Assembly (NCBI GenBank): GCA_024698705.1
Contig: JAILQX010000047.1
Location: 1 to 64,000, forward strand
DNA: 64,000 bases
Origin: Lachnospiraceae bacterium
GTDB lineage: Bacteria > Bacillota > Clostridia > Lachnospirales > Lachnospiraceae
Direction of reading: 5' to 3'
Shown: piece by piece, positions 4,346-46,937 of the stretch
Layout: every line of letters starts with the position of its first letter
Position numbering within the stretch: the first letter of the stretch is position 1
Notes under the pieces: generated by a model
What the model was told of the DNA's origin: nothing
The model's database searches: none
The model's input: the letters and a program-made list of their open reading frames with translations, nothing else
Translations under genes and position numbers: made by a program

Positions 4346-4381
4346 GGGTTTCTGCAGGGGCTTGGAGGGGGTGCTTTTCGT

Positions 4382-4490
4382 CTTTTAGGGTATTTTGTTT
4401 TCGCCTTTTAGGTATTTGGTTTTCGCCTTTTAGGGTATTTGGTTTTCGCCTTTTAGGGTATTTGGTTTTCAACTTTTAGGGTATTGGATT
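4382..4490. repeat. 22-23-bp tandem repeat, five units
   Basis: CTTTTAGGG-type units begin at 4382, 4404, 4427, 4450 and 4473 (period 22-23 bp), each containing TATTTGGTTTTC or a close variant. The array follows the degV terminator and shows no coding character. Confidence 0.8.
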
Positions 4491-4724
4491 TTCAACTAAT
4501 TTGCCGGTCGAGAAGTGTATTTAAGATACATTGTCTGATATAGAGGAAATTATCTTAAGTTTTTGAGGGTTTTATGTCGGAAATACGCAAATTTAAGCGC
4601 TGATCCCGGAAATCATATCATTTATCTTAACTTGTTAACCGGGTTCCCTGTAGTGAGAGTCAAAATTAAGATATATGAGGGAAATATCAGAAATGTATCT
4701 TATTTCACTGTGTCGAAAATGATC

Positions 4725-4805
4725 CTGAATGAAATTGATTCTGTATAGAAATTGATTCTGAATGAAATTGATGCTGTATAGAAATATATCCTGAATGAAA
4801 TTGTT
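4725..4805. repeat. 33-bp tandem repeat, three units
   Basis: Units beginning CTGAATGAAATTG start at 4725, 4758 and 4791; the first two continue with a (T/G)CTGTATAGAAAT stretch. Confidence 0.75.
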
Positions 4806-4860
4806 TTATACCGGTGAATTTTTAATGGTAACACAGGGGCTTTTATGGTAATATATATAA

Positions 4861-4953
4861 GGCTCGGGCAGCAGCTTATGGGATCCGGACGGAAGGCTCG
4901 GGCAGCAGCTTATGGGATCCGGGCGGAAGGCTCGGGCAGCAGCCGATGAGGCC
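4861..4953. repeat. 34-bp tandem repeat upstream of ridA
   Basis: GGCTCGGGCAGCAGC starts units at 4861, 4895 and 4929 (period 34). The first two units are nearly identical and the third is truncated. This G+C-rich array contrasts with the AT-rich DNA around it. Confidence 0.85.
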
Positions 4954-5002
4954 AAGTTACGACCTGACCGATGTAGATTATATGATTAAGGAGATAAGGA
5001 TC

Positions 5003-5380
5003 ATGATCAAGAAAGTTTCCACAGATAAAGCACCTGCAGCTATAGGACCTTATTCACAGGCTATTATTGCCGATAAGTTTTTATTTGCTTCGGGACAGAT
5101 ACCGATAAATCCCGCCACAGGCAATGTTGAGGCGGTTACCATAGAGGAGCAGACAGAGCAGGTCTGCAAGAACATAGGAGCCATCCTTATCGAGGCAGGA
5201 TGCGGATATGAGAACGTTGTCAAGACAACCTGTTTCCTGGCCGATATGGGCGATTTCGCGGCCTTTAACGGTGTGTATGAGAAATATTTCACCCAGAAGC
5301 CCGCAAGGAGCTGTGTGGCCGTTAAACAGCTTCCTAAGAACGTCCTGTGTGAGGTTGAGGTGATTGCCAGCCTCTATTAG
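5003..5380 (+). CDS. ridA: RidA family enamine/imine deaminase
   Basis: 125 residues with the family signatures GPYSQA, SGQIPINPATG, a KTTCFLADM-type segment and the substrate-binding arginine in KPARSCVAV. RidA proteins hydrolyse reactive enamine/imine intermediates released by PLP enzymes (for example 2-aminoacrylate) in the cytosol as trimers. The frame is open further upstream (a possible ATG at 4946), but I choose the ATG at 5003 because AAGGAG lies 10 bases before it and the protein then starts MIKKVSTDKAPAAIGPYSQ as in the family. The last codons and stop are duplicated in the spacer (5402-5418). Confidence 0.9.
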   Translation: MIKKVSTDKAPAAIGPYSQAIIADKFLFASGQIPINPATGNVEAVTIEEQTEQVCKNIGAILIEAGCGYENVVKTTCFLADMGDFAAFNGVYEKYFTQKPARSCVAVKQLPKNVLCEVEVIASLY

Positions 5381-5435
5381 GCATCCGGTGGGTTTTACCG
5401 GCAGCCTCTATTAGGCATATTCGGCGGTTTTATCG
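5368..5435. repeat. 34-bp direct repeat containing the ridA stop codon
   Basis: CAGCCTCTATTAGGCAT occurs at 5368-5384, including the ridA stop TAG, and identically at 5402-5418. Similarity continues through the following GGTTTTA-type stretch. Confidence 0.85.
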
Positions 5436-5470
5436 GGCGTATGAGCTTGTAAACTGATAATGATGATCGG

Positions 5471-5510
5471 ATCCCTGTGGAGATGCATGAGACTCTGCAG
5501 GGATTATTTT
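5471..5510 (+). terminator. Probable terminator after ridA
   Basis: ATCCCTGTGGAG pairs with CTCTGCAGGGAT (one mismatch) around a 10-base loop, followed by TATTTT. Confidence 0.6.
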
Positions 5511-5517
5511 GGGAAAT

Positions 5518-5622
5518 ATAAACAAACGTGTTGAAGGTATAATCAGACTTTCATAAACAAACGTGTTAAAGGTATAATTTGACTTTCATGAACAAACGTG
5601 TTAAAGGTACAATTCAACTCTC
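5518..5622. repeat. 35-bp tandem repeat that includes the start of the EamA gene
   Basis: Three 35-bp units at 5518-5552, 5553-5587 and 5588-5622. Each contains AACAAACGTGTT(A/G)AAGGTA. The third unit is the first 12 codons of the transporter gene; the two upstream units have ATA where the gene has its ATG start codon. Confidence 0.85.
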
Positions 5623-43083: not shown

Positions 43084-43205
43084 ACTTATGTGAGATAAGC
43101 TTCTTAAGGAGCGCAGACACTTATGTGAGATAAGCTTCTGAAGTAGAACGAACACTTATGTGAAATAAGCTTCTGAAGTAGAACGAACACTTATGTGAAA
43201 TAAGG
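43084..43205. repeat. 35-bp tandem repeat, four units
   Basis: ACTTATGTGA(G/A)ATAAG begins units at 43084, 43119, 43154 and 43189, exactly 35 bp apart. The array ends at the terminator stem. Confidence 0.95.
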
Positions 43206-43233: not shown

Positions 43234-43932
43234 GTGTCATTACAGGAGATTTCAGGAGTGCTCATGTTTTGAAGATATCCCGAAGGTTGAAAAGTCTTTA
43301 TTTAGTGGTTGAAAGGCTGTATTCAGAGGCTTTGTTGACAGAGATAGGCATGCAATGCTATCATCAGAGCACTTAAAGGTTATAAGCGTGACGGGATATG
43401 GTATCTCGTATGATTGGAATCAGTAAGATATGACGTGTCATATGCTTCCGTGGCTTAAATGCGGATGCTTACAGGCACAAAAGACAAGTTGGACAGATAA
43501 AATGAGCCTTCAGGACAATTTATCTGTTTTATTTCAAATCAAATAGAAGTATTTCATTTCGCGAACAGATAATATCAGGAATTCAGTTGGATTATCTGTT
43601 GAAATTCCCTATGTGACAAAATTTTATAAAAATATAACAGATAATATTTCATATTTTAGGATATTATCTGTTGAAGGACATTAAAAACACACTGATAATG
43701 GCATTTTATACAGATAAATTGACGTTTTACAGGGAATTATCTGTATGGCAGAAATTGTCTGTTTGTAAGCTGAATAAGGTCTCAAAACAGATCAAAAGTG
43801 ATCGTGTATATAGCAGTTTAAAACGATTAAAGTCAAAACAGATCATATGTTTTCGGATCAGGTTTCAGCCAAGCAGAGATCACCGAAGATCAATATGCCT
43901 ACAAGTACATTGGAAAATATAAGGAGACGATT
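43234..43932. other. Intergenic region with dyad array before the nuclease-like gene
   Basis: About 700 bases with no convincing gene. The main feature is the four-unit dyad array (43493-43744). A frame without a start codon (43831 onward) runs in phase with the good ribosome site and ATG at 43933, and may be remnant coding DNA. Confidence 0.65.
43493..43744. repeat. Regular array of four 35-bp dyads ACAGATAA-N19-TTATCTGT
   Basis: Copies at 43493-43527, 43565-43599, 43637-43671 and 43710-43744. Each is exactly 35 bp with identical 8-bp inverted ends; starts are 72, 72 and 73 bp apart. The 19 inner bases vary but often have AGGA or GGAA before the right arm. The 37-38-bp spacers are unrelated. 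Two more copies lie at 46830 and 46903, 73 bp apart. Confidence 0.95.
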
Positions 43933-43970
43933 ATGGATCTGAAAAGCATGATAAAAAGAAACAAAAAGAA

Positions 43971-44726
43971 TTGCAGGAATTACAGGAGACGATCAAAACA
44001 GACGAACGTCGCTGCCCGAAGGGTATCCTCAGGGCATACAGGTATAAGAACGGGTATCAGTATTATATCCAGAAAGACAAGAAGGATATTTGCGGAAAAT
44101 ATGTGCCGAAAAAAGATATTCGCAAAGCGCAGCTGCTGGCACAGAAGGAATATGATCGTTTGCTGAGCAAATGCATTGATGAGGAAATAAAAAAACTTGA
44201 TGAAACAGTGGAACTGTTGGAAAAGGAGCCATGGGAAAAGGCAGAAGAAATGCTTCCGCTCCCAAAACTTGTTCTTATCAACAGACCGGTTATGTCGGAT
44301 GAGGATTTTGTATGCGGGTGGAAAAATCAGATATATACCGGATTGGCATTCAGGGAGGGAAGTCCGGAATTCCATACGAAAAGGGGCGAAAGGGTAAGAT
44401 CCAAAACCGAGGTGATAATAGCAAATCTGCTTGATGAGGCGCAAATCCCGTACCTTTACGAAAAACCGCTGAATCTTGGAAAATACGGAGAAATCCATCC
44501 CGATTTTACACTTTTGGATATAAAAGATAAGAAAGAAATAATATGGGAACATTTCGGGATGATGGATGACACGGAATATCGAAACAACGCGTTTCAGAAA
44601 TTGCGTGAATATGAAGCAAACGGATACTTTGTGGGATCTAATCTGATAATAACATTTGAAACCGTAAAACTGCCGATCGATACAAAAAACATCAAGAGGG
44701 TGATAGATACAATAATCCGGAAATAA
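43971..44726 (+). CDS. PD-(D/E)XK nuclease-like protein, reading frame disturbed at the start
   Basis: 251 residues from a weak TTG. The second half matches a family common in Firmicutes: RSKTEVIIANLLDEAQIPYLYEKPL, then HPDFTLLDIKDKKEIIWEHFGMMDD, with the E/PD/ExK-type spacing of restriction-endonuclease folds. The first half (QLLAQKEYDRLL and YQYYIQKDKKD) also fits. However, the only ATG with a good ribosome site (AAGGAG, ATG 43933) is in another frame. A one-base shift in the A-rich stretch 43951-43970 would join it: MDLKSMIKRNKK to ELQELQETIK. Function unknown; a mobile or defence role is possible. Confidence 0.7.
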   Translation: MQELQETIKTDERRCPKGILRAYRYKNGYQYYIQKDKKDICGKYVPKKDIRKAQLLAQKEYDRLLSKCIDEEIKKLDETVELLEKEPWEKAEEMLPLPKLVLINRPVMSDEDFVCGWKNQIYTGLAFREGSPEFHTKRGERVRSKTEVIIANLLDEAQIPYLYEKPLNLGKYGEIHPDFTLLDIKDKKEIIWEHFGMMDDTEYRNNAFQKLREYEANGYFVGSNLIITFETVKLPIDTKNIKRVIDTIIRK

Positions 44727-44862
44727 AGCATCACGAGATAATGGATATGATGATAGGAAAATAAAAAGCATCACAAGATGCCAGATATGATGATCGGAAA
44801 ATAAAGCATAATGAGATGAAGATGCTATGATCCGGAAGTTAAATTCTATGAGATGTGGAGGA
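44715..44862. repeat. Diverged repeats of the nuclease gene end
   Basis: The end of the gene, CCGGAAATAAAGCATCA with its TAA stop, is echoed by diverged copies such as CGGAAAATAAAGCAT (near 44794) and CCGGAAGTTAAATTC (near 44831). Confidence 0.7.
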
Positions 44863-44863
44863 C

Positions 44864-45736
44864 CTATGATGCAAATGTATCCCGGCTGCTATTTTCAGGA
44901 GCGGTTCTGTCCTTTACGGATATACCGCAATGCAAAGCTCCTTCGGGACAGGCTTTGACACAGTCACCGCAGCGTATGCATTCACCGCTGTCGGGTGTGA
45001 GAGTGGGATCAACGCACATTTTGCAGACTGAAGAACATTTGCCGCAGGAGATGCATTTTGAAGTGTCACATGTAAGCCTGACGAGTGCAAATCTGTTGAA
45101 TATCGCATAGAAAGCGCCAAGGGGACAGAGGTATTTGCAAAAAGGTCTGAAAATGATAAGCGAGCCGATAACGATCGCAAGCAGTATGATCAGTTTCCAT
45201 GTAAACAGTCTGCCGAGCTTGCCTGCGAGGACACTGTTTGAAATGGCCAGCAAAATTCCGGAGACAGTGCCGGAGGGGCAGATATATTTGCAAAAGACAG
45301 GCGTAAGCTTGATGGATGCCGGCAATATGACTACACATAAAAGCAGGATGATGTATTTGATCCGGCGCATCGGCCTGTCTGCTTTGAAGCGGTTCTTTTT
45401 AATGGGAAACGGTATCAGCGCCAGAAGTTCCTGAAGCAGCCCGAAGGGGCAGAGAAATCCGCAGACAACGCGCCCGAGGATAGCGCCGAAAAATATCAAA
45501 AGTCCCAGAACATAATATGGAAATTTAAATGTCATTTTCGACAAAAATGTCTGTAACGATCCTATGGGACACGCGCCGACGGCCCCCGGACATGAATAGC
45601 AATTAAGCCCCGGAACGCAGATCTGCTTAACGGGGCCTGAATATATCCTGCCTTCAAAAAATCCTTTGAAGTTTGCATTTGTTATGAGGGACCAGAGCCC
45701 CTGTACAGCAACACGTTTCTTTGTATTATCAGCCAA
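44864..45736 (-). CDS. Polyferredoxin-type membrane protein (NapH-like, 4Fe-4S)
   Basis: About 290 residues from a TTG at 45736 that overlaps the preceding miniprotein gene (the frame stays open to 45811). Six helices alternate with cysteine groups: CVPGLNCYSCPGAVGACPIG, CGFLCPFG, CKYICPSG, CKYLCPLG, then two ferredoxin motifs CISCGKCSSVC and CIRCGDCVKACPEG. This architecture moves electrons across or along the membrane. With the CXXC miniprotein and the TlpA-like lipoprotein it forms a conserved-looking clostridial module, perhaps supplying reductant outside the cell (inference). Confidence 0.88.
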   Translation of the reverse strand: MADNTKKRVAVQGLWSLITNANFKGFFEGRIYSGPVKQICVPGLNCYSCPGAVGACPIGSLQTFLSKMTFKFPYYVLGLLIFFGAILGRVVCGFLCPFGLLQELLALIPFPIKKNRFKADRPMRRIKYIILLLCVVILPASIKLTPVFCKYICPSGTVSGILLAISNSVLAGKLGRLFTWKLIILLAIVIGSLIIFRPFCKYLCPLGAFYAIFNRFALVRLTCDTSKCISCGKCSSVCKMCVDPTLTPDSGECIRCGDCVKACPEGALHCGISVKDRTAPENSSRDTFAS

Positions 45737-45878
45737 TTCCGATACACTCCATACAGATCTTTGCGGCTTTTTCGAACACAGCGGAAGCCTGCCCTTCGAC
45801 CAGTCCGGCAAATATAAGGATGATCGCCGCTGTTAAAGTGATCATTAGAATTATTCTTTTTTTATCCGGTGCTTTCAT
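45729..45878 (-). CDS. CD1871A-type CXXC miniprotein
   Basis: 49 residues: a basic start (MKAPDKKR), one helix (about 9-27) and AAKICMECIGIG with a CXXC. Perfect ribosome site AGGAGG, 4 bases before the ATG. It matches the small CXXC proteins (CD1871A family) found beside 4Fe-4S membrane proteins in Clostridia. It overlaps the next gene by 8 bases. Probably a redox carrier or assembly partner; the family role is unproven. Confidence 0.85.
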   Translation of the reverse strand: MKAPDKKRIILMITLTAAIILIFAGLVEGQASAVFEKAAKICMECIGIG

Positions 45879-45925
45879 AAGACCTCCTTGGATCACTGCG
45901 TGCCGTTATCAAGCATAAACGGGGA

Positions 45926-45988
45926 TCATTGCGTACTCAGCGTTTCCATGATGTTTTCCGGTTACTGCGCACTCAGCGTTTCCATGAT
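45926..45988. repeat. Duplicated gene end of the TlpA-like gene
   Basis: The last nine codons with stop (45962-45988 on the minus strand) recur at 45926-45952 with three mismatches; a third partial copy (GGATCACTGCG) is at 45890. Confidence 0.85.
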
Positions 45989-46666
45989 ATTTTTCCAATC
46001 ATCATAGCTTCTGCTTCCGATAAATATGAAATCGTCCTGATCTGCCATTTTGCTTTTGATAATATGACCGTTTTGATCGAAGAAAACCGTATTTGGCACA
46101 TAATCTGACAGAAGCGGCATGAATTCCGGGACAAATCTGAGGACCGGATATGTGGTCCCGACATTTTTGAGGGTTGCCATGGCATCTTCCTCGGTTCCGT
46201 ATACACCGATTACGGCGAAATCACCGCTTCCCGCACCGAGATCGACATACAGCTTTTCTATATCCGGCATCTCACTGACACACGGACCGCACCAGGGCTC
46301 CCAGAAATTCACCATCGTGACTTTATGATCCTTGAAGATCGTTTCATCCACATCGGTCTCATTGATCACATCATAGGTTGAAAATGTGATGTCAGGGTTA
46401 TAAGGTTCAGCGTTTGATGTCTGATCGGAAGAAGATTTTTGGGCATCAGCGCCTTCGACCACAATGTCCTCAGTGTCAACGCCCTCGACCTTTATATCCA
46501 CATCATCAACGCCTTCGACCACAATGTCTTCGACATCAACACCTTCGACATCGATGTCCTCTTCGAATCCAACATCAGGATGCTCCACGGTTTCAGTCAA
46601 AACACATGCATTCATGATCGAAGCAAGTATAAGAACGGTAAGTAAAAAAGGTAATCTTTTCTTCAT
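45962..46666 (-). CDS. TlpA-like thioredoxin-fold lipoprotein
   Basis: 234 residues. Signal peptide with lipobox MNAC (Cys21), then acidic tandem repeats (DVEDIVVEGVD type, about 35-75) and a thioredoxin domain with WEPWCGPCVSEMP (CXXC). It would reduce or make disulfides or support haem/redox maturation outside the membrane. It lies upstream of the CXXC miniprotein and polyferredoxin gene in the same direction, which could feed it electrons. Confidence 0.9.
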   Translation of the reverse strand: MKKRLPFLLTVLILASIMNACVLTETVEHPDVGFEEDIDVEGVDVEDIVVEGVDDVDIKVEGVDTEDIVVEGADAQKSSSDQTSNAEPYNPDITFSTYDVINETDVDETIFKDHKVTMVNFWEPWCGPCVSEMPDIEKLYVDLGAGSGDFAVIGVYGTEEDAMATLKNVGTTYPVLRFVPEFMPLLSDYVPNTVFFDQNGHIIKSKMADQDDFIFIGSRSYDDWKNIMETLSAQ

Positions 46667-46829
46667 AACACTCCTTTTAGGGCAAATGTCACTCTTTTTA
46701 GGGGTGAATGCCTCTTTTGAAATCTGATCTCAATAATACATCATTATTATATATTACGCAGATCGGCTATACCATATGAAATTCACAGAATTACCGTTTG
46801 ATGGCAAGATGGCATCAGAAGGGGCTCGG

Positions 46830-46937
46830 ACAGATAAAACAGCCAATCCGGAGGAAATATCTGTCGAAAACATTGGAAAAGCAGCTGATCAGCGGGTTTG
46901 AGACAGATAAAATGTCCAATTCCAAGGAATTATCTGT
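46830..46937. repeat. Second cluster of the 35-bp dyad, two copies
   Basis: 46830-46864 (right arm ATATCTGT, one change) and 46903-46937, 73 bp apart. Same architecture as 43493-43744. The inner bases resemble each other (CCAATCCGGAGGAA, CCAATTCCAAGGAA). Confidence 0.95.

Follow-up and report, generated by a model that had tools for sequence, protein, structure and literature searches.

Helically phased palindromic arrays and an adjacent nuclease-like gene: an apparent repeat-plus-enzyme element in Clostridia

We analysed a stretch of 64,000 nucleotides (the window) from Lachnospiraceae bacterium (assembly GCA_024698705.1, contig JAILQX010000047.1, positions 1 to 64,000), in which six copies of a 35-bp split palindrome, or dyad, lie in two arrays on either side of a nuclease-like gene and a redox module. 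This looks like one case of an apparently unnamed repeat-plus-enzyme element: many Clostridia carry a nuclease-like gene with its own phased palindromic array, and such arrays are also dispersed elsewhere in the genome. We consider it rather probable that the PD-(D/E)XK-type protein encoded next to the dyads recognises them as sites in double-stranded DNA, gene and arrays forming a pair of the REPIN/RAYT kind.

Dyad arrays in the window and its genome

The two arms of the main dyad family and the positions of the window dyads of both families, together with the gene, were as follows.

Array 1, dyad 1: 43493 to 43527, no strand; ACAGATAA-N19-TTATCTGT, exact match
Array 1, dyad 2: 43565 to 43599, no strand; exact, 72 bp past dyad 1
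Array 1, dyad 3: 43637 to 43671, no strand; exact, 72 bp past dyad 2
Array 1, dyad 4: 43710 to 43744, no strand; exact, 73 bp past dyad 3
Cognate PD-(D/E)XK nuclease-like gene: 43971 to 44726, + strand; 251 aa from TTG, homologues adjoin arrays, fold predicted from a second homologue
Array 2, dyad 1: 46830 to 46864, no strand; one mismatch in the right arm
Array 2, dyad 2: 46903 to 46937, no strand; exact, about 215 bp upstream of rpsT (S20 by Pfam)
Second-family dyad, TAAGATA-N22-TATCTTA: 4522 to 4557, no strand; arms also found around the genome's second gene copy (contig C10)
Second-family dyad, second of its array: 4667 to 4702, no strand; 145 bp on, or two steps

An earlier note on this sequence had reported the six copies of the main family, and on re-measurement each spanned 35 bp, five being exact and the one at 46830 having one mismatch, with starts 72, 72, 73 and 73 bp apart. 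When counted against shuffled DNA, as that note had proposed, the dinucleotide-shuffled window at up to three mismatches gave a mean of 0.42 and a maximum of 3 dyads, and 0 of 100 shuffles reached six. The clusters bracket the nuclease-like gene and the redox module as described there, the redox genes being Fer4_5 and Redoxin/Thioredoxin; the nuclease-like gene, which the note mentioned simply as lying between the clusters, is the key to the finding. Neighbours of the window arrays were the Fer4, Redoxin and S20 genes and a large membrane-protein open reading frame (ORF).

A search of the whole genome (2.54 Mb, 54 contigs), also suggested beforehand, placed the dyads above random frequency, with 58 copies at up to two mismatches and 0 for the pattern read backwards. 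In ten genome stretches plus the window we observed 13 array sites of 1 to 8 copies each, with steps of 71-73 bp, mostly 72 or 73 (61 bp twice within one array), all occupying intergenic gaps save for small overlapping open frames that we took as spurious. Units on contigs C8, C17 and C21 had little in common beyond arms and spacing, and those on C14, C15 and C16 were near-copies of one another; since the units of several arrays agree in arms and step alone, arms and step are the conserved part. Judged from the starts of their translations, the genes next to these arrays had no evident common function. Modules of two or three dyads reappeared at unrelated places in the genome, with similarity ending within about 30 bp beyond the outer dyads in two of three compared pairs and continuing in the third. 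The second arm family numbered 30 copies at up to one mismatch, two of them in the window (4522 and 4667), where the array has a similar but inverted stretch on contig C32 (L161; 81% over 262 bp).

Some units of the main family read TDK...ELSV in one frame, and the earlier note had held that a degenerate peptide repeat must be excluded. We rejected that candidate: the 73-bp steps shift the frame and some unit types contain an in-frame stop. Given arms that vary some 19-fold less than the remaining array sequence (see below), a decayed peptide-coding or neutral tandem repeat is scarcely credible.

CRISPR arrays resemble these arrays in their regular spacing, variable inserts and nearby nuclease-like gene. 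They differ in that only 8+8 bases are constant in several of the dyad arrays, whose inserts evolve by duplication and substitution, and the initial judgement that the repeat is not CRISPR holds. No cas-like gene was found among the identified window neighbours listed above, with no cas profile search made.

Other tandem repeats were also observed in the window. A 35-bp repeat of 3.5 copies with a CTTAT...ATAAG dyad, unlike the main family in arm and step, sits between a permease-like gene and a terminator-like hairpin (43084-43204). Another, of about 40 bp, starts where the nuclease-like gene ends, at its stop codon (44721-44823), and several unrelated short tandem repeats (23, 16/33, 34 and 35 bp) surround the second-family dyads (4375-5613).

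The nuclease-like gene family and its arrays

In a scan of one genome per species, from which our own genome may be absent, the pattern of two adjacent units matched one record, Butyrivibrio hungatei NK4A153. Directly downstream of its array is a gene encoding a protein with 33% identity to the product of window ORF 43971-44726, which likewise comes after the first window cluster. A second homologue in our own genome (L028), on another contig and 48-49% identical to the window protein, is flanked by the TAAGATA-N22-TATCTTA dyads; its different arms suggested one own array per gene. The frame of the window gene is open from 43923 and has no in-frame ATG, TTG at 43971 being a possible start. An ATG with a good ribosome site at 43933 is out of frame relative to the conserved frame of the gene, and the start region may reflect a frameshift, an assembly error or a TTG start.

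The window arm itself is close to species-specific. The exact dyad was present in 5 of 299 genomes of the family, in four of these as a single copy, and at up to one mismatch in 4 of 20 genomes of the genus, three single-copy and one with a control match. A search of relatives by arm alone, as outlined in the earlier note, would therefore miss a widespread architecture with other arms.

A profile built from three proteins detected the nuclease-like family in 97 of the 299 genomes sampled from the window's own family. Class-wide, 31 of 343 genomes have it. We scanned 91 gene loci for dyads without any prior arm sequence, namely the 90 best-scoring listed matches other than the window's own (L029-L118, L028 and L029 being one place) together with L023. 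Chains of at least three dyads were observed at 49 of the 91 loci (one of them, L114, being a 26-bp tandem repeat that meets the scan rule) and of at least two at 63. None of 273 Markov control sequences held even two chained dyads; among 20 control stretches offset 14-20 kb from the genes, two held two dyads and none held three. A stricter count requiring exact arms retained at least three dyads at 45 of 91 loci, compared with 0 of 91 Markov and 0 of 20 offset controls. Nine of ten fetched loci from Clostridia families other than the window's own also had chains of at least three.

At the 52 loci with at least three dyads by a relaxed count, the array was mainly upstream of the gene in 39, on both sides in 10 and mainly downstream in 3. 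One locus had a 365-bp inverted repeat, 90% complementary, enclosing the gene and a neighbour. Many gene copies (L031, L051, L053, L058, L069, L073, L081, L082, L089, L105 and others) are no more than about 1 kb from the end of their contig, as though assemblies tended to break at the arrays; the family may be under-counted in draft genomes.

A phage or plasmid origin was considered and rejected. The two-unit pattern had no match in viral contigs, where the protein had no confirmed match either, and the array region had none in a phage collection. The protein had relatives in three unannotated faecal phage records, the best of which (31% identity over 90% of the query; MT839528.1, a 4.2 kb record, L187 3168-3824) has no dyad chain. 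Nine plasmid records matched over 32-45% of its length, and most of the genes concerned carry AAA ATPase or helicase annotations.

Helical spacing of the dyads

Steps between dyads are quantised. Chains could be measured at 61 of 105 loci, the re-fetched loci L168, L169, L173-L175 and L177 being omitted from the step analysis, and the median steps fell at 52-54, 61-64, 71-75 or 83-86 bp at all but three loci, two of which are medians of single and double steps and one a median of mixed steps. The peaks near 53, 63, 73 and 84 bp correspond to 5-8 helical turns. In a circular test the best period was 10.35 bp (R 0.774), and 5000 uniform simulations peaked at 0.43, a comparison that overstates significance because related loci are not independent. 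Arm starts were 26-31 bp apart at 45 of 51 loci. Step changes of one turn occurred within single loci (73/83 in L029 and L080, 74/85 in L179, 54/63 in L167), the steps of L185 (48/61) being a poorer fit, and proteins with the common arm AAGCATCA had arrays of either 62 or 73 bp (L083 and L090 versus L080). The tandem repeats available for comparison were few, with three arrays of period 40-110 in 174,577 bases, one of which was a 63-bp repeat without dyads.

Such steps are the expectation for packing on the same face of double-stranded DNA and speak against an RNA unit. Among the candidates listed in the earlier note, evenly phased sites for a dimeric protein are thus favoured by the ~10.4-bp steps at 61 loci. 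A partition site is not supported, given that the arrays occur at scattered places and vary from one close species to another, nor is a structured RNA family, given no Rfam match in the window and a helical quantisation that is a feature of DNA.

Transcription of the arrays into structured or guide RNAs, as in CRISPR or TIGR systems, would account for an array adjoining a nuclease-like gene, for arms that can pair as a hairpin and for variable inserts. In TIGR-Tas systems arrays also adjoin, up- or downstream, a gene able to carry a nuclease domain, and the repeat sequence is kept within a locus and differs between loci; these systems require a Nop protein and 36-nt units (PMC12045711). Here the units are of about 53, 63, 73 and 84 and not 36 nt, shift by ~10.4 bp with no fixed length and follow helical turns, and the arms are inverted, unlike the edge and loop repeats described there. 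We found no Nop domain among the Pfam, NCBIfam, PHROGs and Foldseek matches of the family and no Cas-like domain (again with no cas profile search made), no Rfam match in the window at the gathering score and, as noted, no match of the array region among phages. The units of several arrays are near-copies, as in tandem duplication. An RNA function is therefore very improbable.

Predicted fold of the nuclease-like protein

We aligned 80 members of the family (78 of 89 collected proteins with L028 and the window protein) and observed, in the numbering of the L028 protein, invariant W141, R167, S168, K169, E171, Y187, E188, D202, F203, E217, H218, G220, Y227 and E254. Among them are the motifs RSK.E, DF and EH. 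An AlphaFold2 model of L028 (predicted local distance difference test, pLDDT, 93.5) consisted in order of a helix, a two-stranded hairpin, a long helix, short helices and an alpha/beta domain. In the hairpin conserved and variable columns alternate, which would suit a DNA-reading ribbon. Foldseek searches with the model placed Bax1, R2 retrotransposon and DrdV entries at ranks 1-14 and MunI at rank 29, all of which we take to be PD-(D/E)XK enzymes; the scores were weak, and the assignment therefore holds at superfamily level only. By its predicted fold and conserved acidic residues the family fits the PD-(D/E)XK superfamily, with cleavage putative.

Pfam gave no match near the cut-off for the nuclease-like protein. 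Among the PADLOC PD-DEXK profiles, PDC-S68 matched the window protein over positions 135-249 (E 1.8e-29), and one of three members matched a PHROG named Holliday junction resolvase (8e-6). The PDC-S68 candidate defence proteins share this C-terminal domain; they differ in that their profiles are 1202-1273 positions long, with only the last ~115 in common.

Dispersal and turnover of arrays

Dispersal was also observed in other genomes. A congener (G213) carried 168 copies of its own arm, the control giving 0, and several of its modules repeated the internal spacing 51-63-63-63-62 in both orientations. At five of its loci (L149, L150, L153, L154 and L156) the modules mix TACATCGG dyads with a second repeat of CCCGCG/GCGCGG type; in L078 a repeat of this type has steps of 63-64 bp. 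The Butyrivibrio genomes G207 and G486 contained 67 and 32 copies of TACCTGCA-N19-TGCAGGTA, again with 0 in the control.

Alignment of these two genomes, whose flanks are 84-96% identical, revealed arrays present in one and absent in the other. We fetched 14 G207 sites, of which L230 had no counterpart in the fetched G486 sequence and was left out. At the 13 remaining sites, five arrays were wholly absent in G486, two were down to one dyad and six were shared, with unit number differing in five of the six. All six G486 clusters fetched had a G207 counterpart. Outgroup flanks stopped matching ahead of the site, so gain versus loss was not polarised. Within the shared arrays we counted 4 differences over 432 arm positions and 286 over the 1618 remaining positions, a rate about 19-fold lower in the arms; arms were picked in G207 at up to three mismatches and left unconditioned in G486, unit turnover inflates the non-arm figure, and the sixth pair (L191/L198) yielded no arm positions.

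At one Butyrivibrio site the surroundings of the nuclease-like gene (L190 and L197) were 88-96% identical to a third genome (L218) and the flanks 71-81%, which suggests horizontal exchange of a gene island. Elsewhere a 466-bp segment present in G207 (L188 858-1324) and absent in G486 (L195) was not a repeat array.

The chief alternative is that the same protein serves in regulation or chromosome folding. The arrays would be operators or architectural sites at which the bound protein, active or not, represses its own gene, terminates or insulates transcription or bends DNA, with dispersal by slow recombination that is not driven by the enzyme. Helical phasing would suit cooperative binding or looping, the arrays are mainly upstream of the gene at 39 of 52 loci, and by our reading of the G207/G486 alignments some dispersed arrays follow a stop codon and precede a terminator-like hairpin. 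However, the five whole-array absences, the 168 copies in one genome and the modules at unrelated places show fast turnover, the array neighbours in our own genome are without evident common function, and catalytic-type residues are invariant in 80 proteins. We regard this account as unlikely overall.

Arm sequence and protein kinship

Closely related proteins share arms. Protein pairs of at least 0.6 identity (n=7) had a mean arm similarity of 7.71, compared with 2.97 for all 1275 pairs, and 0 of 5000 permutations matched this value; for pairs of at least 0.5 identity (n=41) the mean was 4.70, with a like permutation result. The seven pairs fall into three groups: L089/L099/L111, whose members span three genera, L080/L083/L090, which do so too, and L076/L109, both in a single genome. 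In our own genome the two genes go with two arm families, both dispersed. This co-inheritance of arm and protein supports recognition of the one by the other and falls short of proving it.

A different factor, such as a host nucleoid protein, a recombinase or another transposase, might instead read the arms, the nuclease-like gene hitch-hiking or regulating. That arm binding by the nuclease-like protein is something we infer leaves room for such a factor, as does the second repeat type in the G213 modules, which is not an evident dyad. Yet within a single genome the two loci have different arms, and closely related proteins from different genera have common arms. A constant host factor would not fit arms that vary by locus and follow related proteins, and we think this alternative quite unlikely, more so than operator or architectural sites.

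Discussion

The reading we favour is that the arrays are rows of binding sites for the adjacent PD-(D/E)XK-type protein. One protomer would read each 7-9-bp arm and one dimer would cover each dyad, with neighbouring dimers packed cooperatively on the same helix face, since linkers differ from one another by whole helical turns. Every lineage of the gene would have its own arm specificity, and the gene with its flanking arrays would act as a master locus from which same-arm arrays are seeded between genes elsewhere. Arrays would grow and shrink by whole units and then be lost again. If the nuclease acts, breaks or nicks within the arrays would explain the gain and loss of units, and their repair could seed arrays at other places.

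Several points weigh against this reading. Arm binding, nicking or cutting, and array spread through the activity of the protein are steps that we infer, and a nuclease that cuts its own genome at dozens of sites would do harm if it were neither regulated nor restricted to nicking. The best Foldseek match had an E-value of 2.4e-3 (none fell below 0.001) and a template modelling (TM) score of 0.25, with V-ATPase and prefoldin chains among the lower ranks; given such scores, the putative DNA-reading half is without a known relative. Fewer than two chained dyads were found at 28 of the 91 gene loci, and the reversed control of the second arm family gave 3 matches. Over the full range of identities, a Mantel test relating arm to protein similarity (51 loci having three or more members, L023 set by hand) was not significant (r 0.04, 308 of 2000), as would be expected if specificity changes fast; the link is confined to high identity, where common descent of linked loci could explain it. 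The direction of gain or loss is unpolarised because sites were picked for array presence in G207, and no target-site duplication was evident at the five aligned absent sites.

Among described systems the closest in way of life is REPIN/RAYT, or REPtron, which pairs REP palindromes with TnpA-REP and in which dispersed palindromes of each type cluster beside their own transposase gene (PMC3116915; PMC8266576). Common to both are dispersed intergenic palindromes, distinct enzyme genes with their own repeat clusters, co-diversification and repeats that are apparently non-autonomous (PMC3116915; PMC8266576). A repeat type located at its cognate gene and dispersed elsewhere, as in REPIN/RAYT, was found here. 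The systems differ in the enzyme, here predicted to be PD-(D/E)XK-like and not an HuH/Y1 transposase, and in the repeats, here helically phased split-dyad arrays with a variable middle of ~19 bp, compared with REP hairpins that are processed single-stranded. Because the gene does not encode the defining HuH/Y1 enzyme, the element is not a REPIN/RAYT member.

In layout, FokI-type nucleases join a DNA-reading part to a PD-(D/E)XK part, and the inverted half-sites of zinc-finger nucleases (ZFN) and transcription activator-like effector nucleases (TALEN) flank a variable spacer. The likeness to the putative arrangement here is in layout only, and FokI was not among the 50 Foldseek matches listed. 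A bolder possibility, which we put forward tentatively and as somewhat doubtful, is a natural counterpart of these engineered dimeric nucleases. The N-terminal part would read the arms and the C-terminal PD-(D/E)XK part would cut or nick the ~19-bp middle, the breaks driving copying, expansion and loss of arrays; specificity would have changed often across Clostridia with the geometry kept, and the element would be selfish intergenic DNA with an enzyme of a new class.

A search of open-access PMC text with a few terms found no description of such a system. We rate the composition, gene plus arrays, as categorically new, yet its way of life resembles that of REPtrons. The finding accounts for one class of intergenic repeats in these genomes, and its helical quantisation is a case in which genome comparison alone points to cooperative protein packing on DNA. 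The dozens of gene and arm pairs would amount to a natural code relating protein to 8-bp half-site and a possible source of new DNA binders. If the favoured reading is true, the role of REPIN/RAYT would have been invented a second time, independently, in a class of bacteria that is common in the gut and the rumen.

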